Source: Manis javanica
Lineage: Eukaryota > Chordata > Mammalia > Pholidota > Manidae
Assembly (NCBI RefSeq): GCF_040802235.1
Contig: NC_133174.1
Span: 140,111,213 to 140,175,212, forward strand
DNA: 64,000 bases
Direction: 5' to 3'
Below are positions 3,001 through 51,404 of this stretch, one piece after another. The first letter of the stretch is position 1. The number at the start of each line of letters is the position of its first letter. Position numbers and translations under genes: made by a program. A model generated the notes under the pieces. The model searched no databases, was not told the DNA's origin, and saw only the letters and a program-made list of their open reading frames with translations.

Positions 3001-3751
3001 TGCGGCTTCTGTCTCCCATGGAATCTCCTCCTCTCAAGGAGGGAGGCAGCCTTTGGGGAAGGTCTAAAACCGGACAGGGCAACCTCCTCAACCCCACAGG
3101 AAGCGGAGGTCAGCTCAGGTCCGACCCAGCCCCCTGCCGGATCACTGAAATTCACCTCCTCCACTGCAGGGTCCCAGACCGAAAAAACAGGCCATGTGAA
3201 AAAGCTGCAGAAGTAAAAAGTGGAAAGGGGAAGGCAGCAACGCCACGCGACCTGTGGGGCCCCGAGGCGCCTGCACATCACGGAGACGATTAGCCTGCAC
3301 GGCACACAACCCCCACCCTCCCGCCCGAGATCGCGTTAGGCTGCTCAACTCTTCCCCTTCTCAGGAGACAGAACTAGTCTGTAATCTAGAAGCTGTCATT
3401 TCTCCCGAATGAGCACAAGCGACGGGGAAGAGCGGAGCAGGCGCAGGAGCGAGGAAGGGGGTGGGACTCTGCCTGCGCCGAAGGACGCATCCGCCCGGTG
3501 GGGTAACGGTGTCTGTCTGAAGTCACCTCCGATGTCGACGCCCCCGCCCCCTCACAGCCGGACTCGACGGTTCCTCTCCAATAACGGAAACCACCCCTCA
3601 ACCCAGGAGAGGCAGAGGCTGTAAAAAGGAAAGAGACAGGGAAAAGCAGAGAAGCCCGGCAGAGCAAAGGGTCGCACAGGCACAGGGAGAGCAAATCAGT
3701 GCGGAGAAATGGGAGGGAAAGATCCGAAGACCCAGCGGGCTTTGCACTCAC
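1..3751 (-). other. HCFC1: HCFC1 intron 1 (5' part, runs off the left edge)
   Basis: Intronic sequence of HCFC1 downstream of coding exon 1 on the minus strand. Its donor (GTGAGT on the minus strand) is read at 3751-3746. I find no second HCFC1 exon here, so exon 2 must lie left of the window. The stretch is moderately GC-rich, has no young L1 or LTR, and has one likely old MIR-type segment around 1140-1260. Short open frames between 384 and 3350 have no recognisable protein and overlap in several frames, so I treat them as chance. Confidence 0.8.
1140..1262. repeat. Old MIR-like SINE fragment
   Basis: The stretch reads like a diverged MIR family element: a 'cctgtcacttcccctctcag' block followed by a segment resembling the MIR tail that ends in 'cagctctaac'. 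It is ancient and degraded; the boundaries are approximate. Confidence 0.4.
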
Positions 3752-3944
3752 CCGTGTTGTACACGTGCAGTTCGTCCACTATCCCCTCGTTGCCGCCGCC
3801 GAACACCACGATGAGCTCCTTGATGGCCACGGCGCGGTGGCCGTGGCGGGGCCGGGGCACTGGACCCGACCAGCCCACCACTCGCTTCCAGCGGGGCTGC
3901 AAAAGCACAGCTGGCGAGTTGGCGGGCGACACGGCCGAAGCCAT
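3752..3944 (-). CDS. HCFC1: HCFC1 coding exon 1 (host cell factor 1, N-terminus)
   Basis: Encodes the first 64 residues of HCF-1, starting MASAVSPAN and ending HVYNT, plus one base of the next codon. The ATG is at 3944-3942 and the exon ends at 3752 before a GTGAGT donor. The peptide matches mammalian HCF-1 almost residue for residue. It contains the start of the first Kelch blade, with the FGGGNEG segment at about residues 48-54. HCF-1 is a nuclear co-regulator. Its Kelch beta-propeller binds factors carrying the HCF-binding motif, and it links them to chromatin modifiers such as SET1/MLL, Sin3 and BAP1. The protein is about 2000 residues, so over 95% of the CDS lies outside the window to the left. 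The divergent neighbour is TMEM187, which shares the CpG island. No lesion is seen. The minus-strand frame stays open past the donor to 3696, but that continuation is intronic. Confidence 0.96.
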
Positions 3945-4082
3945 AGTTTCGGGAAAGGGCGCGGTGGAAAACAGTCACCAAACGGGAAGGGGGCTCCAAT
4001 TCGTCTCTCACACACACCCCTTCACCTAAGGCAGTTCTCAACGGAGAAGCGGTTCCTCACACAGCGGTGGACTGCTCCATGG

Positions 4083-4096
4083 AGGCCGCCATCTTA
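4083..4096 (-). promoter_or_regulatory. HCFC1: YY1-like site, partial match
   Basis: GGCCGCCATCTTA matches the YY1 core (GCCGCCATCTT; AAGATGGCGGC on the minus strand) but lacks the TGGGA extension found in the five-copy array upstream. Confidence 0.55.
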
Positions 4097-4261
4097 ACTA
4101 TTCTCCTTCCCTTCGGCTCTTCCCCTTCTTCTGGTTCACCCCGTCTCCTCAAGAACCTCCCGAATCTATCATGCGCCTAGGCCCAAGAGGCTGAAGGCCG
4201 CCGAGTCCTGCTGCCCTGACTACTTGCCCGGGCGCTCCCTCTCACAAGCTCGGGCGGGAGG

Positions 4262-4281
4262 CCCTGGGAGCCGCCATCTTG
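4262..4281 (-). promoter_or_regulatory. HCFC1: Repeated promoter motif, copy 1 (YY1-type)
   Basis: CCCTGGGAGCCGCCATCTTG; on the minus strand this contains CAAGATGGCGGC, the consensus YY1 site, in the direction of HCFC1 transcription. It shares a 17-base core with copies at 4460, 4683, 4904 and 5187. Confidence 0.75.
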
Positions 4282-4459
4282 AGCCGCCTCTCTCTCCTCC
4301 CTTCCTCAGTCGTAGCCCTCCCCCGCCGGAAATGGCGGAGACCCGGCCCGGTTCCCACACACCCCCAAGTCCCTTGCACTGGCCGGCTTCCGGGGCGGGT
4401 GGAAAGGAGCCACAGGCACGGCGGTTGTCCCAGTCCCGCCGGCGCTCAGACCACAATTG

Positions 4460-4476
4460 TGGGAGCCGCCATCTTG
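4460..4476 (-). promoter_or_regulatory. HCFC1: Repeated promoter motif, copy 2 (YY1-type)
   Basis: TGGGAGCCGCCATCTTG is identical to the core of the other copies. It follows the palindrome CCACAATTGTGG (4451-4462), which overlaps its first bases. Confidence 0.75.
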
Positions 4477-4679
4477 AGACCGTCCCGCTTCCCCGCCCAG
4501 CGCTTAGCACAGCCGCCGCTCCCGCAACAGCCTCGACACTCGTAAGGGATAGAGGCGCGCCAGAGGCCAGTGGAAAGAGCTCGAATTCTTGGGGGCTGCT
4601 CGGGAGCTCGCGCCGTAGGACGCGTGATGTTCGAACCTTTCCCCTTAGTCCGCCTCTGCTCCTCAGGCTGCGTCTGCCG

Positions 4680-4699
4680 CCCTGGGAGCCGCCATCTTG
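4680..4699 (-). promoter_or_regulatory. HCFC1: Repeated promoter motif, copy 3 (YY1-type)
   Basis: All 20 bases equal copy 1. The flanks are not duplicated beyond a few pyrimidines. Confidence 0.75.
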
Positions 4700-4900
4700 A
4701 GAGTAACTCCCCCTTGCCCCCTATTCTCTTCCTCCTCCGTCAGTTTTTCCACTGCCAACCAAACGCAAGGCAGCGTCCGATCCTCGCTTCCCTCCTTATG
4801 ACTCCTTCCCACGAGAGCCGCTCCAAGGAGCCAGAGTTAAGCCCCGAAGTGGCAACTGTACGGCAAGAGGAGCGGTAACGGCAGGGCGCTCATACCTCCT

Positions 4901-4920
4901 CCCTGGGAGCCGCCATCTTG
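4901..4920 (-). promoter_or_regulatory. HCFC1: Repeated promoter motif, copy 4 (YY1-type)
   Basis: All 20 bases equal copy 1. It lies 221 bp from copy 3 and about 20 bp before the first opposite-strand ATGGCGGC motif. Confidence 0.75.
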
Positions 4921-4940
4921 TGTGAAGAAGTAACAACTAA

Positions 4941-4952
4941 ACATGGCGGCGG
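4941..4952 (+). promoter_or_regulatory. TMEM187: YY1-like site facing TMEM187
   Basis: ACATGGCGGCGG carries the ATGGCGGC core on the plus strand, opposite to copies 1-4. It is the first such site in the TMEM187 direction. Confidence 0.55.
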
Positions 4953-5183
4953 TAGGGCGAGGGGGCGGGGTCGGGCGACGTCATTGCTCGCCCCCAACCT
5001 CCCCGTCTTCGCCCGGCCTCGCCTCTGCGCCGAGGCCTCTTAAAGGAGCCCTGGGCTGCCCCGCAACGAGAGCCCAAGGCCGCTGCGCGCTTGGCTTCGG
5101 CTCAGACCGTGCTCGTCAAGCGCAGCCGCGTCCAGCCCTGCGGCCCCTCCCAGCGCCCCTCCCAGCGCCCCTCCACACCTCCG

Positions 5184-5203
5184 CCCTGGGAGCCGCCATC
5201 TTG
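5184..5203 (-). promoter_or_regulatory. HCFC1: Repeated promoter motif, copy 5 (YY1-type)
   Basis: All 20 bases equal copy 1. It is the outermost copy and lies among motifs that face the other way. Confidence 0.75.
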
Positions 5204-5260
5204 CCACTTCCTCTCGCCCGGCCGTCCACGGGCGTCAATAGCGACTTTCAGCACAAAACA

Positions 5261-5272
5261 AAGATGGCGGCC
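5261..5272 (+). promoter_or_regulatory. TMEM187: YY1 site facing TMEM187
   Basis: AAGATGGCGGCC is a full consensus YY1 site on the plus strand. In many promoters this motif sits just downstream of the transcription start, so it is a candidate start-site element for TMEM187. Confidence 0.6.
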
Positions 5273-5810
5273 GTGGCATCGGGGAATGCCCGGATGAGGA
5301 TACCTCAGACGAGCTTAGCCCCGCCCCCCTTGGGAACTAACCCCAGGTCGCTGAAGGGACACACACCCGGGGAGCTACGTGTAACAGGCAGTGGGGACGG
5401 GGCACAGGTCGTTGAGGGTGGCTTACGGGAGACACTAAAGTTGCGCCTCGGGCCTGGGAGCGGACGTTTTCCCGCTCCGCACGCCCAGCAGCCGCAGGAG
5501 GGGCGGCCCGAGGCCCGGCTCAGGGCAGCCGGAGGCGGGACGAGAGCGCGGCGGTGCGGTGACGCCACCGGCTCCCAGGGTCCCAGACTCGGCGGCCCCG
5601 CCCCCGAGCGCAGCGCCGCCGCCCGCGCGCCAACGAAAGGAGACAGGCCGCGCGCCCGGCGCAGCCCCACATTCTTGCTGGCTGCAAGGCGCGCAGCCTG
5701 GCCGACGGTACCGGAACCTCCCGGGCGCGCGCGGGAGACCTCGGCATCACCTCGCGTTACCCCGCCCCGCCTGCTTCCCAGAGTCCCGCGCCCCGCCCCG
5801 CGCGCAGGCG

Positions 5811-5889
5811 CATGGCGGCCTCTCGGGTCCGCCCTTTTTCGAGATTTGAATTTCCCCCAGCAAAGAGAGGCAAAATACCCGGATGGCGG
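5811..5889 (+). promoter_or_regulatory. TMEM187: Two further ATGGCGG motifs
   Basis: CATGGCGGCC (5811-5820) and GGATGGCGGTC (from 5881) repeat the YY1 core on the plus strand at the outer edge of the island. The second is a weaker match. Confidence 0.4.
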
Positions 5890-6060
5890 TCGCTGGCCTT
5901 TTCGCGCCAATATTGTAAGTTCTCGCAACAGCCTTGAGAGGTGGGTACCGGCTCTACCCCCGCGTTCCAAATCTTTCTGGCGGCCGCCTGGGCGCTGCCC
6001 GGTCATCCTCACTGCCAGACACAGGCTGTAGGGCAAGGGTCCTGCTCTGGAGTCCGGGAG

Positions 6061-8995
6061 CAAGCAGCGACAACTTATAATTTTTACACTTTCTCTCATC
6101 TTTATGTCGACATCTTTATTTTCACCAACCTCTAACCGAAATTTGGCCTTTCCTGCAATTACGAATGTAGACAGCAGAGCACAGCATTAGCACAGATCAT
6201 TTCAGATCGTAGGGCTTTTGTTGTAGATAATATGAAGTGAACAAAATTAAATTACAAGACCTACTGGCAGGCAGAATAACTACTTTGAAATTACGGTAGT
6301 TATTAAACCTGCCAGTAGAGCCTGTAATTTCACCTTAGTAAAGAAGCACATATATTAATTACTGTATCACATTTTCAAAAATATTTTAATAACCATCTTT
6401 CGAGAGACTAAATTCATGTTATAATTGTGTTTTTGTTAATGCATTTGGAAGCAGAGGCCAAGGAGGCCTGTGACACAGGAGAGGACAAGAAGCCCCCCAC
6501 AGCATGGCTCCGCTGCCTCACCTCTCTGGCCCTGAGTACCTCTGCTGTAAAATAAGGAAACCAAGCTGCTGGTTACCAGGGCCCTTGCCCAATGTCAGCC
6601 ATTTTCTCCCAAGAGTTCAGAAATCACTGGTTGCTCCGGGCTCTTTGGGCATCCGAGTGGCCAGGATTGACCTCACCTGAGGGGGGCGGTGGTCCTACAG
6701 TAGAGCGCTCGGACTGGCATCACCTTATCCGCAGAAAGGTGGCAAGGACGCTCAGCATAATCAGGCGCAAGCAGCGGCTGTCATAAATGCTATAGGAAAG
6801 CAGCTACCTCTTGTGACAGAGCCCCAGGAAGCAGGAGAGTCTGAGGAACATATATTGACTCTTAACTGGGAGAGAAATTCCCCCATAAAACCCCAGAATG
6901 GCCAGCCAATGCTGTTGAACTCTCAGCCATTGTGTGCCAGGCATGGGGAAGTTGTGAAGAACTTTATGAGTGTCATATAATACGGGTCGTGGCAGCTCAG
7001 GGGTACAGAGGAGCTAGGCCTTAAATTGCCCAGCCTGGTCTTCCTGGTGGACTTGGGAAGTTGGTTTGATAACATGTCACTTTCCACTTGCACAGAGGTT
7101 CAAATGAAGTCTGCCCGGCAGCCCGAGAGAAGAGTTGCTTTCCATGCCCTTCCTAGACCTTTATCAAGTTGACAGTGTTTGACTCCTGTCCTCAGCTCTC
7201 ATCCATGCTTGCTGGCAGACAGGAAGGTCAAGCTAGTGCAGGCCCCAAAAGCCTGACAACTTCACACCAGGGAGCCAGGCTCCAGATGGGTACCAGCAGG
7301 GACCCAGGGACACCAGGCAGGTCTTCAGCTGGCCTCCCACTGGAGTCAAGAGCTGAATGTGCAAGCAACTCAGAGGAAATGATAGTGGAGTTGAGGGTGT
7401 GAGCAGGCTGGGGCAGTACAGAAGGAGGGCTGCAGAGTCTCCTAGCTGAAGGACAGACTGGGTCTACAGAGCTTAAACGGCTATGTAGGGATGGCACTTT
7501 GATGTCTGGCCAAGAGGCTGTGATGTGACCATGTGTGGAGAGCCAGCCACTAAAGGGTATTAAGCAGGGCCTGCTATGACCTTATCTGGGGGTCATCAAG
7601 GAGAAGGTATAGGTTGCTATGTGCAGACCATGTTAGCGGTGGCTGGCCTGGAAGTAGGGACCCTGGGGCAGGGTGGTCCCCCAGGCCCAGTGGCTCCTTA
7701 ACCAGAGAGGAGGAAGTGGGAGGTGGTGCATGCCAGGGCCACACGCTGAGATGGAGGCTTGTGGTCTCCTTAACAGCAGACCCCCAAGGCAGGATAGGAA
7801 CAAGAAAGCTTGGCAGGAGGCCCAGCAGACCACTCCCCAGAGAATACAGGTGAATGCCTAGGGCCCGGGTGAGAAGTGAGATGGCCACTAGGACCAGTGA
7901 GGGTGAGGAAAGAGCAAAGGCGCTGGTTCTGTGCTTGAGTCGGACGGAACTAAAATTGAGCAGGACTTCACTGAGCACCAGAGCGAGAGCAGAGAATCAG
8001 ACTCTACCTCTCCTTTCCAGGGCCTAAACTATAGGATGGAAGATGAACGTCGTGCCTTAAAAAAAACGGTGCTCGGTGGTCTACATATATAAGAAGTCAT
8101 TTGATGCACACAACTCTGCAGGAAGGTCCTGGTGGCATCCCCATTCTACAGGTATGTAAACCAAGGCCCGCAAAGGTTAGGACCCAAAGTCACACAGTTA
8201 GTAGGTAGGGAAGCCAGGGTTCGAAGACACACAGTCCATCTCATCTCCATGCCTGCCTGCCTGCCGTCTTGGCTTTCAGTCATTTTCACAGCATTGAACC
8301 TCTTCTCTCTTTGATACTAATATATTTCTGGGCTACTAGATCAACTCATACCACAGCTGGCCCCAGAGCAGTTGACAGTCAGTGGGAAGTCCATATTCTT
8401 TTTAAATGGCTGCTACTGTAGCTACAGGAAATGGAAGGCTTGATTGTGGGCCAGGGAAGAACGTGATTTGGAACCATGTGGTACTATGGCAGAGCAGGAG
8501 GCGACCCAGGGTGGCAGGCCTCGGACAGCTTCCTGTGCTGCCTGGCCTCATACCCAAGAAGCAGAGAGGAGGTGCTTGTCCTCCACCTCCCTGCTCCTTC
8601 TCCTCCAGCCCCATGCCATCCCTTGCCTTGGGTTCCAGAACTTGGGCCACAGCTAACCATCTGCAACAGTCTGTTCAACTGGTGCTTGGCCTGAAACATC
8701 TACATTTACAATACCACTGAGATGGAAAAGCCCATTCTGAGCTGTAGGAAAGGTTTAAATCTCTAAATGAAGTGTCTCTAAGGGAAGTAGGGCAGTGAGT
8801 GGGGGGATTATAGTACACAGTGAAGTATGGAGAGCATAGACGTCACCCCTAGGTCAGAGGGTTCTACAGGCTCCTAGAGGCGATGTGTGAGGAGGCGAGT
8901 GTGTTGTGGGTATCACTTCACTTCCTTTTCTGTTTTTTTCTGACAAAAACTTGGTGGATCCTAAGGCTGAGAGTCAGAAAGATGGAAGCTCTTTT
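6061..8995. other. TMEM187: TMEM187 intron 1, first part; no gene
   Basis: GC content drops sharply after about 6060. The stretch holds anonymous single-copy sequence and an old MIR fragment near 8135-8260. Several short open frames (for example 7574-7978 minus and 8406-8720 plus) overlap others in different frames, and none looks like a known protein. Confidence 0.6.
8135..8262 (+). repeat. MIR SINE
   Basis: It contains the MIR core arrangement: 'cattctacag' then 'cacacagttagtaggtaggg' then a 'ccagggttcgaa' block. This is a tRNA-derived ancient SINE shared by all mammals. The B-box-like GGTTCGAA belongs to the repeat and is not a functional tRNA. Confidence 0.7.
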
Positions 8996-9996: not shown

Positions 9997-12730
9997 CTAT
10001 CTGTTCAGTTCCTCTGCCCATTTTTTAATTGGATTATTTGCTTTTTGTTTGTTGAGGTGTGTGAGCTCTTTATATATTTTGGATGTCAACCCTTTATCGG
10101 ATCTGTCATTTATGAATATATTCTGTACGGTACTGTAGGGTACCTTCCATACTGTAGGGTACCTTTTTGTTCTATTGATGGTGTCCTTTGCTGTACAGAA
10201 GCTTTTCAGCTTGGTGTAGTCCCACTTGTTCGTTTTTGCTTTTGTTTCCCTTGCCCGGGGAGATATGTTCATGAAGATGTTGCTCATGTTTATGTCCAAG
10301 AGATTTTTGCCTATGTATTTTTCTAAGAGTTTTATGGTTTCATGACTTACATTCAAGTCTTTGATCCATTTCGAATTTACTTTTGTGTATGGGGTTAGAC
10401 AGTGATCCAGTTTCATTCTCTTACATGTAGCTGTCCAGTTTTGCCAGCACCATCTGTTGAAGAGACTGTCATTTCCCCATTGTATGTCCATGGCTCTTTT
10501 ATCGTATATTAATTGACCATATATGTTTGGGTTAATGTCTGGAGTCTGTATTCTGTTCCACTGGCCTGTGGCTCTGTTCTTGTGCCAGTACCAAACTGTC
10601 TTGATTACTGTGGCTTTGTAGTAGAGCTTGAAGTTAGGGAGAGAGATCCCCCCCACTTTATTCTTCCTTCTCAGGATTGCTTTGGCTATTTGGGGTCTTT
10701 GGTGTTTCAATATGAATTTTTGAACTATTTGTTCGAGTTCGTTGAAGAATGTTGTTGGTAATTTGATAGGGATTGCATCAAATCTGTATATTGCTTTGGG
10801 CAGGATGGCTATTTTGACGATATTAATTCTTCCTAGCCAAGAGCATGGGATGAGTTTCCATTTGTTAGTCTCCTCTTTAATTTCTCTTAAGAGTGTCTTA
10901 TAGTTGTCAGGGTATAGGTCTTTCACTTCTTTGGTTACGTTTATTCCTAGGTATTTTATTCTTTTTGATGTAATTGTGAATGGGATTGTTTTCCTGATTT
11001 CTCTTTCTATTAGTTCATTGTTAGTGTATAGGAAAGCCACAGATTTCTGTGTATTAACTTTGTATCCTGCAACTTTGCTGCATTCCGATATCACTTCTAG
11101 TAGTTTTGGAGTGGAGTCTTTAGGGTTTTTTATGTACAATATCATATCATCTGCAAATAGTGACAGTTTAACTTCTTCTTTACCAATCTGGATTCCTTGT
11201 ATTTCTTTGTTTTGTCTGATTGCCGTGGCTAGGACCTCCAGTACTATGTTGAATAACAGTGGGGAGAGTGGGCATCCCTGTCTTGTTCCTGATCTCAGAG
11301 GAAAAGCTTTCAGCTTCTTGCTGTTCAGTATGATGTTGGCTGTGGGTTTATCATATGTGGCCTTTATTATGTTGAGGTACTTGCCCTCTATACCCATTTT
11401 GTTGAGAGTTTTTATCATGAATGGATGTTGAATTTTGTCAGATGCTTTTTCAGCATCTATGGAGATGATCATGTGGTTTTTGTCCTTTCTGTTTATGTGG
11501 TGGATGAAGTTGATGGATTTTCTAATGTTGTACCATCCTTGTATCCCTGGGATGAATCCCACTTGGTCATGGTGTATGAGCCTTTTGATGTATTTTTGAA
11601 TTGGGTTTGCTAATATTTTGTTGAGTGTTTTTGCATCTGTGTTCATCAGGGATATTGGTCTGTAATTTTCTTTTTTGGTGGGGTCTTTGCCTGGTTTGGG
11701 TATTAGGGCGATGTTGGCTTCATAGAATGAGTTTGGGAGTATTCCGTCCTCTTCTATTTTTTGGGAAACTTTAAGGAGAATGGGTGTTATGTCTTCTCTG
11801 TATGTCTGATAAAATTCTGAGGTAAATCCATCTGGCCTGGGGGTTTTGTTCTTGGGTAGTTTTTTGATTACTGCTTCAATTTCTTTGCTTGTAATTGGTT
11901 TGTTTAGATTTTCTGTTTCTTCCTTGGTCAGTCTTGGAAGGTTGTATTTTTCTAGGAAGTTGTCCATTTCTTGTAGGTTTTCCAGCTTGTTAGCCGTCGT
12001 GATGTTTACTTTCTCATTTCTGATTCTGTTGATGTGTGTTGATTCTCTTTTTCTCTTAATAAGTCTGGCTAGAGGCTTATCTATTTTGTTTATTTTCTCA
12101 AAGAACCAGCTCTTGGTTTTACTGATTTTTTCTATTGTTTTATTCTTCTCAATTTTATTTATTTCTTCTCTGATCTTTATTATGTCCCTCCTTCTGCTGA
12201 CTTTAGGCCTCATTTGTTCTTTTTCCAATTTCGATAATTGTGACATTAGACTATTCATTTGGGTTTGTTCTTCCTTCTTTAAATATGCCTGGATTGCTAT
12301 ATACTTTCCTCTTAAGACTGCTTTCGCTGCATCCCACAGAAGTTGGGGCTTTGTGTTGTTGTTGTCATTTGTTTCCATATATTGCCTGATCTCTATTTTA
12401 ATTTGGTCGTTGATCCATTGATTATTTAGGAGCATGTTGTTAAACCTGCATGTGTTTGTGGACCTTTTTGCTTTCTTTGTACAATTTAGTTCTAGTTTTA
12501 TACGTTTGTGGTCTGAAAAGTTGGTTGGTAGAATTTCAATCTTTTTGAATTTATTGAGGCTCTTTTTGTGGCCTAGTATATGGTCTATTCTGGAGAATAT
12601 TCCATGTGCACTTGAGAAGAATGTGTATCCTGTTGCTTTTGGATGTAGAGTTCTGTAGCTGTCTATTAGGTCCATCTGTTCTAGTGTGTTGTTCAGTGCC
12701 TCTGTGTCCTTACTATTTTCTGTCTGGTGG
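9997..12730 (-). pseudogene. L1 ORF2, reverse transcriptase portion (broken frame 2)
   Basis: The continuation of ORF2p after the frameshift runs through the end of the endonuclease domain (TEYT-like [18 protein letters not shown]), the linker and the reverse transcriptase. RT motifs include [19 protein letters not shown] and the catalytic FADD ([10 protein letters not shown]). It ends at 9997 because a conserved Gln codon in the ..EELNRQFS.. segment has become TAG. The open frame itself starts at 12786, but L1 homology begins near 12720. Confidence 0.88.
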
Positions 12731-13220
12731 ATCTGTCCTCTGGAGTGAGTGGTGTGTTGAAGTCTCCTAAAATGAATGCATTGCATTCTGTTTCCTCCTT
12801 TAGTTCTGTTAGTATTTGTTTCACATATGCTGGTGCTCCTGTGTTGGGTGCATATATATTTAGAATGGTTATATCCTCTTGTTGGACTGAGCCCTTTATC
12901 ATTATGTAATGTCCTTCTTTATCTCTTGTTACTTTCTTTGTTTTGAAGTCTATTTTGTCTGATACTAGTACTGCAACACCTGCTTTTTTCTCCCTGTTGT
13001 TTGCATAAAATATGTTTTTCCATCCCTTGACTTTTAGTCTGTGCATGTCTTTGGGTTTGAGGTGAGTCTCTTGTAAGCAGCATATAGATGGGTCTTGCTT
13101 TTTTATCCATTCAGTGACTCTGTGTCTTTTGATTGGTGCATTCAGTCCATTTACATTTAGGGTGATTATCGATAGGTATGTACTTATTGCCATTGCAGCC
13201 TTTAGGTTCATGGTTACCAA
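12693..13220 (-). pseudogene. L1 ORF2, endonuclease portion (broken frame 1)
   Basis: This is the N-terminal apurinic/apyrimidinic-type endonuclease of L1 ORF2p. Visible motifs include TLNVNGLN, CCLQETH (catalytic Glu), YAPN and LGDFNTPL. The natural start is probably one of the Met codons within the first few residues. The frame runs out after the [15 protein letters not shown] segment, where a frameshift around 12700-12730 moves homology into another frame. Confidence 0.85.
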
Positions 13221-13503
13221 AGGTTCAAGGTTAACTTCTTTACTGTCTTAGAGTCTAACTTAACTCACTTAGTATGCTGTTACAAATACAATCTAAAGGT
13301 TCTTTTCTGTTTCTCCTCCTTTTTCTTCCTCCTCCATTCTTTATATATTAGGTATCATAGTCTGTACTTTTTGTCTATCCCTTGATTGACTTTGGGGATA
13401 GTTAATTTAATTTTGCATTTGCTTAGTAATTAGCTGTTCTACTTTCTTTACTGTAGTTTTATTACCTCTGGTGACAGCTATTCAACCTTAGGAACACTTC
13501 CAT

Positions 13504-14352
13504 CTATAGCAGTCCCTCCAAAATAGACTGTAGAGATGGTTTGTGGGAGGTAAATTCTGTCAGCTTTTGCTTATCTGGAAATTGTTTAATCCCTCCTTCA
13601 AATTTAAATGATAATCTTGCCGGATAAAGTAATCTTGGTTCCAGGCCCTTCTGCTTCATGGCATTAAATACATCATGCCACTCCCTTCTGGCCTGTAAGG
13701 TTTCTGCTGAGAAGTTTGATCGTAGCTTGATGGGCTTTCCTTTGTATGTGATCTTATTTCTGTCTCTGGCTGCTTTTAACAGTCTGTCCTTATCCTTGAT
13801 CTTTTCCATTTTAATTACTATGTGTCTTGGTGTTGTCTTCCTTGGGTCCCTTGTGTTGGGAGATCTGTGCACCTCCATGGCCTGAGAGACTATCTCCTTC
13901 CCCAGACTGGGGAAGTTTTCAGCAACTACCTCCTCAAAGACACTTTCTATCCCTTTCTCTCTCTCTTCTTCTGGTATCCCTGTAATGCGAATATTGTTCC
14001 GCTTGGATTGGTCACACAGTTCTCTCAATATTGTTTCATTCTTAGAGATCCTTTCTTCTCTCTGTGCTTCAGCTTCTTTGTATTCCTCTTCTCTAGATTC
14101 TATTTCATTTATCGTCTCCTCCACTGTATCCAACCTGCTTTTATTACCCTCCATCGTGCTCTTCAACGATTGGATGTCCGACCTGAATTCATTCCTGAGT
14201 TCTTGGATGTCTTTCCATACCTCCATTAGCATGTTGGTGATTTTTCTTTTGAAGTCCCTTTCAGGAAGAGTCACGAGGTCCATATCGTTTAAATCTTTCT
14301 CAGGAGTTGTATTAATAATTTTACTCTGGACAAGGTTCCTTTGGTGTTTCAT
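13504..14352 (-). CDS. L1 ORF1 protein (open, 282 aa)
   Basis: This is an L1 ORF1p-like RNA-binding chaperone, which forms trimers that coat L1 RNA. From residue ~40 to ~125 it is rich in charged heptads (coiled coil; for example ETINEIESREEEYKEAEAQRE). It then has the RRM-like core with RNNIRITGIPEEE near residue 117, and the basic C-terminal domain with LKAARDRNKITYKGKPIKL. The frame is uninterrupted. At 282 residues it is shorter than human ORF1p (338). It may be a genuine lineage form or may begin slightly upstream. It belongs to the surrounding L1 and is not a host gene. Confidence 0.85.
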   Translation of the reverse strand: MKHQRNLVQSKIINTTPEKDLNDMDLVTLPERDFKRKITNMLMEVWKDIQELRNEFRSDIQSLKSTMEGNKSRLDTVEETINEIESREEEYKEAEAQREERISKNETILRELCDQSKRNNIRITGIPEEEREKGIESVFEEVVAENFPSLGKEIVSQAMEVHRSPNTRDPRKTTPRHIVIKMEKIKDKDRLLKAARDRNKITYKGKPIKLRSNFSAETLQARREWHDVFNAMKQKGLEPRLLYPARLSFKFEGGIKQFPDKQKLTEFTSHKPSLQSILEGLL

Positions 14353-15520: not shown

Positions 15521-16321
15521 ATGAAGCCTGAGTCAAGGCAGGCCCTCTTCCACGTGGCTGTGGCCAGCAGCCTCTGTGTGACCACTGTCTACACAGGTGT
15601 TTTTGAAGGTGTCGTCATCCAGGTGGGCTACGAGCACTATGCTGAAGCAGCGGTAGCCAGCCTCCCCACCTTTCTAGCCATGCCCTTCAACTCGCTCATT
15701 AACTTGGCCTACATGCTCCTGGGAGGGTACTGGCTGCGGAGGAAGGCCAGTGCCCCAGGGCACCCCGCAGCTGTGCAGAGGGCTCAGTACCTGAAGGATG
15801 TCTTCGCTGCCATGGCTCTGGTCTATGGCCCCGTTCAGTGGCTGCGCATTGGGGTGCAGACGCACTCTGCTGCTGTGCTGGACCAGTGGCTCACCTTGCC
15901 CATCTTCGCGTGGCCAGTGGCCTGGTGCCTCTACCTAGACAGGGGCTGGAAGCCCTGGCTGTTCCTCACCGTGGAGTGCCTCTCCCTGTGCAGTTACAGC
16001 CTTGCCTTGCTGCACCCCTATGGGTTTGAAGTTGTGCTGGGCATGCACATGGCAGCCGCAGTGAGCCTAGCCCTCCGTGCCCACAGGCGCTATGGCAGTG
16101 GCTCCTCAGGAATGTACTTGGCTTTGGGCATGCTTTCCTGCCTGGGCTTTGTGGTCCTCAAGCTGTGTGACCATCAGCTTGCGAGATGGCATCTCTTCCA
16201 GTGGCTCACCGGCCACTTCTGGTCCAAAGTCTGTGATGTGCTCCAGTTCCACTTTGCATTCTTATTTCTGACAAATGTCCACACTTGCCAAAGACGCGCT
16301 CCTGAGGGGAAGATGCATTAA
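15521..16321 (+). CDS. TMEM187: TMEM187, transmembrane protein 187 (266 aa)
   Basis: This is a multi-pass membrane protein of unknown function. It closely follows mammalian TMEM187 throughout, including QVGYEHYAEA, the FLAMPFNSL segment and the DQWLTLPIFAWPVAWCLYLDRGW stretch. Its C-terminal half holds LGFVVLKLCDHQLARW and HFWSKVCDVLQFHFAFLFL. Hydrophobic segments fall near residues 8-28, 50-72, 92-108, 120-138, 147-163, 168-187, 197-214 and 235-251, giving six to eight membrane passes. The whole CDS is in one exon, as in human. The ATG at 15521 follows a splice-acceptor-like pyrimidine tract ending in TTGCAG at 15520, so the coding exon probably starts exactly at the ATG. An upstream in-frame TTG (15515) is inside the acceptor and is not a start. 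No frame lesion is seen. The human protein is 261 residues, so the length is normal. The function is not established. Confidence 0.95.
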   Translation: MKPESRQALFHVAVASSLCVTTVYTGVFEGVVIQVGYEHYAEAAVASLPTFLAMPFNSLINLAYMLLGGYWLRRKASAPGHPAAVQRAQYLKDVFAAMALVYGPVQWLRIGVQTHSAAVLDQWLTLPIFAWPVAWCLYLDRGWKPWLFLTVECLSLCSYSLALLHPYGFEVVLGMHMAAAVSLALRAHRRYGSGSSGMYLALGMLSCLGFVVLKLCDHQLARWHLFQWLTGHFWSKVCDVLQFHFAFLFLTNVHTCQRRAPEGKMH

Positions 16322-51392: not shown

Positions 51393-51404
51393 GCCGCCAT
51401 CTTG
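51393..51404 (-). promoter_or_regulatory. IRAK1: YY1 site in the IRAK1 promoter
   Basis: GCCGCCATCTTG, the consensus YY1 site in the direction of IRAK1 transcription. It is the same 12-mer as in the HCFC1 array but without the CCCTGGGA extension. Confidence 0.65.

Follow-up and report, generated by a model that had tools for sequence, protein, structure and literature searches.

The window, by which we mean the entire stretch of 64,000 nucleotides of Manis javanica DNA analysed here, carries on its minus strand an ATG at position 3944 that opens a protein which we take to be HCF-1, and on this recognition the placement of the motifs described below in the HCFC1 promoter, as proposed in the initial annotation, stands. 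Residue 10 of the protein is Ser in this window and presumably Leu in human HCF-1; a PDB sequence search with the N-terminus returned no HCF-1 chain and 15 other sequences, mostly kelch proteins. Further to the right is an open reading frame that we have named TMEM187-like, whose order next to HCFC1 presumably fits Xq28. Between the two genes there are open reading frames of 929, 172 and 282 aa (9997-14352, minus strand) that we take to be LINE-1. The coordinates of the main features, including the CpG-rich island, are collected in Table 1. A scan of this island for bacterial promoters gave no promoter-like and three terminator-like matches (2.2 expected), the models being bacterial and their output meaningless for a mammal.

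Table 1. Positions of HCFC1, the repeated motif and associated elements in the window.
Feature	Coordinates	Strand	Remarks
CpG-rich island with array	3401..6000	.	per 200 bp: GC 0.57-0.78, CpG observed/expected 0.66-1.14
HCFC1 start codon	3942..3944	-	ATG at 3944; coding exon runs toward lower coordinates
Probable sixth copy, diverged	4080..4096	+	TGGAGGCCGCCATCTTA, 3 mismatches
Array copy 1	4262..4281	+	20-bp form CCCTGGGAGCCGCCATCTTG; HCFC1 sense CAAGATGGCGGCTCCCAGGG; 17-mer 4265-4281
Array copy 2	4460..4476	+	17-bp form, TTG before it in place of CCC; 17-mer 4460-4476
Array copy 3	4680..4699	+	20-bp form; 17-mer 4683-4699
Array copy 4	4901..4920	+	20-bp form; 17-mer 4904-4920; T of its minus-strand ATG 971 bases upstream of HCFC1 start codon
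Weak YY1-like core	4939..4950	-	GCCGCCATGTTT, 2 mismatches; strand opposite to array
Array copy 5	5184..5203	+	20-bp form; 17-mer 5187-5203
YY1-like core	5260..5271	-	GCCGCCATCTTT, 1 mismatch, without TGGGA extension; strand opposite to array
Solo copy of extension	5569..5580	-	CCCTGGGAGCCG, without YY1 core
TMEM187-like ORF	15521-16321	+	

An array of identical YY1-type motifs

The 17-mer TGGGAGCCGCCATCTTG occurs five times in the window without a mismatch, always on the plus strand, and the positions, the single orientation and the start-to-start intervals (195, 223, 221 and 283 bp) that were originally annotated are all reproduced. The spacing is irregular, and the five exact copies fit within 939 bp. 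The further claim that four copies extend beyond 17 bp also holds, the 20-bp form being shared by all except the copy at 4460. Taken from the ATG that each copy contains, the distance of the array to the HCFC1 start codon is 333-1255 bp, the copies sitting upstream of this codon and not over it.

When up to three mismatches are allowed the 17-mer matches six times in the window against 0.20 expected, and none of 100 dinucleotide shuffles reaches six; the additional match, at 4080, is probably a decayed sixth copy of the array. The word GCCGCCAT is found four times outside the array where 0.11 are expected (0 of 2000 shuffles reach four). One of these four is the sixth copy, and three lie on the opposite strand at 4943, 5264 and 5812, within the same island. 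In homotypic YY1 clusters of the Peg3/Nespas/Xist kind, four or more YY1 consensus sites fall within some 1-2.5 kb, in a single orientation and with irregular spacing, and the array has each of these properties, with the mismatched cores in addition.

The initial annotation noted that the sequence between the copies is not duplicated, and the flanks agree. Among 20 pairwise local alignments of the 100-bp flanks there is none whose score is reached by fewer than 5% of 200 shuffles, the lowest value being 6%. When the flanks are compared in register, only the three bases immediately 5′ of the 17-mer stand out (identity 0.600 versus 0.280, reached by 0.6% of 3000 random placements); the next ten bases upstream (7.7% of 3000 placements) and the first two downstream (10.2%) show a similar trend that does not pass 5%, and the remaining seven bins are at background. 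Identity therefore breaks off abruptly at both edges of the block. Tandem duplication of units of about 200 bp, in which spacers are copied along with repeats, is ruled out by flanks at or close to background. An L1 origin is likewise ruled out, since all five copies have TGGGA at the place where the L1-like context, CTCAY-GCCGCCATCTTG, has CTCAY.

Occurrence in the genome

A genome-wide search for the exact 17-mer returned five places, of which three are array copies and two are elsewhere and separate from one another; part of the HCFC1 locus reads N in the searched genome, so two array copies are missing from this return. One of the other places (L001, 1200-1513, minus strand, C15) sits on the start codon of a gene that we take to be COQ5-like, the only profile support being an insignificant match to the UbiE family (E 0.18). 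The second is in a CpG-rich stretch where the frame opens MAAPT and then meets a stop.

The 12-bp core alone is far more abundant, with 6349 occurrences of GCCGCCATCTTG against 10 for its reversed control. Most of these exact cores (CAAGATGGCGGC), 5538 of the 6349, share one 5′ context, CTCAY, which we presume to be that of L1. Of 20 core sites picked from the first 100 places listed, all on C1, 16 are clearly L1-like, three are less so and one is CpG-rich. This leaves at most 811 cores outside the L1-like context, or at most 808 once the three array copies returned are set aside.

Pairs of exact cores on the same strand are rare over the gaps counted. Inner gaps of 1-61 yield three pairs, each of them within a single C14 cluster, and gaps of 121-181 yield two in that same cluster; gaps of 161-221 occur at three places (HCFC1, the C14 cluster and one two-copy locus), and gaps of 221-281 at HCFC1 only. 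The census is partial, taking in same-strand pairs of exact cores at inner gaps of 1-61 and 121-281 in the sequence that does not read N, and within its range just three loci are found: HCFC1, the C14 cluster with its 28-bp tandem arrangement, and the two-copy locus. The rarity that a genome scan had been proposed to test is thus borne out, for the part of the genome searched, both by the 17-mer, with its two other places, and by the partial census, with its two other loci.

The TGGGA extension

In all five copies the 12-bp YY1 core is preceded by the same 5 bp, and in four of them by the same 8 bp, and the initial annotation read this as a composite site for YY1 and a second factor. As a general site this reading is not supported, because such a site would be expected to recur and TGGGA does not: a one-mismatch search (all 25 entries counted) finds, before non-array cores, TGGGA twice, TGGGC ten times, and TGGGG and TGGGT once each, with at most 808 other cores of non-L1 context as the denominator. 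At a rate of 2 in 808, the chance that four further copies share TGGGA is about 4e-11, and its presence in five of five copies together with its rarity elsewhere points to common descent or to local constraint.

A partner particular to this locus may nonetheless read the extension, a possibility kept alive by the solo CCCTGGGAGCCG on the minus strand of the island. This 12-mer appears 0.0045 times on average in shuffles of the array-free island (0.45% of 2000 hold one), and it was spotted post hoc. The word CCTGGGAGC is present twice in the array-free island versus 0.11 in shuffles, and shorter words of the extension give no clear excess there (TGGGAGC, 2 versus 0.76; TGGGAG, 5 versus 2.5). 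Genome-wide, CCCTGGGAGCCG occurs 426 times against 196 for the reversed control, about twofold, and two tandem arrays account for at least 36 of the first 100 places listed. It recurs there mostly every 11.1 kb, 22 times over about 230 kb (C2:92005715-92233978) and 14 times over about 140 kb (C2:94226437-94365775), a pattern that points to two extensive tandem arrays whose unit measures about 11 kb.

Discussion

That YY1 is the factor concerned, as proposed at the outset, is in print for both the human and the mouse promoter. In human cells and in hybrids, YY1 ChIP takes the human HCFC1 promoter as its positive control (PMC4363909), and mouse Hcfc1 is described as having the strongest YY1 promoter peak among X-linked genes (PMC11094009). 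The suggested link with X inactivation is also in print for the mouse: upon YY1 degradation Hcfc1 expression goes up on the active X and down on the inactive X, Hcfc1 is a slow-silencing gene, and its YY1 is lost from the inactive X as silencing proceeds (PMC11094009). The text on Hcfc1 YY1 binding in that paper makes no mention of an array and does not explain the strength of the peak, an extreme for which the array offers an explanation at the level of sequence (PMC11094009).

PMC7288482 cites, by its title, a noncoding regulatory mutation of HCFC1 in intellectual disability. At c.-970 this window has a G, and c.-971 is the T of the ATG in copy 4. The mutation, the human MRX3 variant, is said to be a c.-970T>C change that falls within a YY1 site, and to raise HCFC1 expression, and copy 4 is then presumably one base from the variant position, an offset to be expected if the species differ slightly in length here. 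There is also a 1996 Genomics paper whose title reportedly announces the full HCFC1 sequence, promoter included, and a role for YY1; it may already describe the repeats, and four strings from the repeat gave no match in the literature searched. YY1 control of HCFC1 is thus already known, and the architecture of the array, which the 1996 paper may describe, represents a new case among clustered YY1 sites.

We favour, with a probability of roughly 0.6, the interpretation that this is a homotypic YY1 array whose effect is to damp HCFC1 when the X is active and to resist its silencing when the X is inactive. Several YY1 molecules would bind the one-way array together in the CpG-island promoter and 5′ region and so set HCFC1 output. 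On the active X their occupancy would damp the gene, such that loss of a site or of YY1 would raise expression, and this dense occupancy would, on the inactive X, hold the promoter open for longer and slow Xist silencing. The array probably explains the strong YY1 binding of HCFC1, which would then be caused by the five copies; mouse and human presumably carry the same array, and HCFC1 dose would follow copy number. In a mutagenesis study no relation was seen between function and the number of sites for the same factor (PMC3491394).

The sign of the effect, damping on the active X, is drawn from the mouse degradation data and the reported human variant, and is not settled by the sequence. COQ5, the presumed gene at another exact 17-mer, is listed as YY1-activated, and this lowers our confidence in the favoured interpretation. 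The listing is among ubiquitously YY1-activated genes (PMC3491394), and the 17-mer itself may not be the site tested. Clustered sites elsewhere act in both directions: mutation of the Peg3 YY1 sites lowers promoter activity and YY1 knockdown raises Peg3 (PMC2615030), and the YY1 intron cluster is activating at normal and repressing at high YY1 levels (PMC2743690). Repressing YY1 sites in the mutagenesis study favour G at motif position 4 and are near start codons (PMC3491394). The array shares with these repression-associated sites an ATG inside the site (PMC3491394), and its AAGATGG form, with CAAGATGG in all five copies, would match theirs if motif position 4 is the N of AANATGG; it differs from them in its distance upstream of the actual start codon.

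The sites are separate, few in number and identical and so lend themselves to removal one by one, and stepwise removal would ask directly whether the number of YY1 sites sets the slowness of X-linked silencing. It would also ask whether HCFC1 goes up once a single site of five is lost, which is presumably what the human MRX3 variant implies. A bolder version of the proposal, which we regard as quite unlikely, is that the five 20-bp blocks form a locus-specific dose-counting element in which YY1 and a second protein reading CCCTGGGAG would set the HCF-1 level on the active X, the number of sites making HCFC1 the best-shielded X-linked promoter against Xist silencing. If so, copy number would directly encode the rate of silencing.

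Other explanations for the array have to be weighed against a purely homotypic one. The 17-20 bp block could be a composite of YY1 and a factor reading CCCTGGGAG that is particular to HCFC1 and perhaps tied to HCF-1/BAP1 feedback. The bases shared beyond the core, the improbability that TGGGA is common to the copies by chance, and the solo CCCTGGGAGCCG and paired CCTGGGAGC words would all fit, but TGGGA precedes fewer of the other cores than TGGGC does, the solo word was noticed post hoc and its shorter parts are not in clear excess, and CCCTGGGAGCCG is itself about twofold enriched genome-wide, with many of the places listed for it in tandem arrays. Three strict THAP11/ZNF143 consensus strings, moreover, have no match in 3900-6100, and recruitment through these strings is rejected; overall we hold such a composite to be rather doubtful. 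The non-chance sharing of TGGGA would also be accounted for by descent, if the copies arose through recent short copying events of about 20 bp (templated insertion or gene conversion) and owe their identity to this and not to selection, and the abrupt ends of identity between flanks at or near background are what such events would leave. Against this, the reported human variant places a YY1 site nearly as far from the start codon as copy 4 is here, which makes at least this copy look old, and the opposite-strand GCCGCCAT words in the island are expected if YY1-like sites are favoured there; we consider recent copying unlikely.

The block could conceivably also act at the level of RNA. Read in the sense of HCFC1 the repeat is CAAGATGGCGGCTCCCA, and the ATG within every copy has a good start context (A at -3, G at +4) and opens an upstream frame; these frames, of 27, 8, 10, 8 and 11 codons, all stop ahead of the main start. 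Five strong upstream start codons could limit HCF-1 translation, or each could mark a transcription start. Constraint on coding would leave third codon positions free to vary, yet 17 of 17 bases are identical, the ATG is part of the YY1 core anyway, and no paper combining YY1, HCFC1 and 'upstream open reading frame' was found in the literature searched; of the readings considered this is the least probable. Only slightly easier to credit, and still improbable, is that HCFC1 simply has a YY1-rich housekeeping promoter of the ordinary type seen at many CpG islands. YY1 cores are indeed common in promoters, the window's other CpG island having a single exact one (51393-51404, plus strand; without the TGGGA extension), and our pair census is incomplete, but same-strand exact-core pairs within the gaps counted occur at only three loci.

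If the homotypic array is accepted, it has several partial counterparts among known YY1 clusters. We know of no imprinting at HCFC1, and to our knowledge HCF-1 does not bind DNA by itself. The CSE2 cluster of the Peg3 imprinting control region is similar in having many one-orientation YY1 sites spread irregularly over a CpG island (PMC2615030); it differs in its core, GGCGCCATCTT, its location in a 2.5-kb intron region and its binding of YY1 on the unmethylated paternal allele (PMC2615030), whereas the HCFC1 block has a longer identity of 17-20 bp and is upstream of the coding start. Intron 1 of the YY1 gene has five conserved YY1 sites that tune output and are proposed there to act as an occupancy sensor, but these are in two orientations, are common to vertebrates and are bound by the gene's own product (PMC2743690). 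At XIST P2 there are likewise five consensus YY1 sites, in a CpG island that is also X-linked, although, unlike at Hcfc1, YY1 occupies them on the inactive X alone and XIST falls when YY1 is lost (PMC4363909).

Within the same genome, the C14 cluster (L013/L020; C14:46243310-46243521) sits in a lone CpG-rich segment surrounded by AT-rich DNA. Neither a list of its open reading frames nor a handful of SNURF peptide words yielded a convincing gene identity. It resembles imprinted-type clusters, and is like the HCFC1 array in having five exact GCCGCCATCTTG cores, plus two more GCCATCTT, in CpG-rich sequence; its sites recur at 28 bp and multiples of this, whereas the HCFC1 copies are separated by unrelated spacers of about 180-265 bp.
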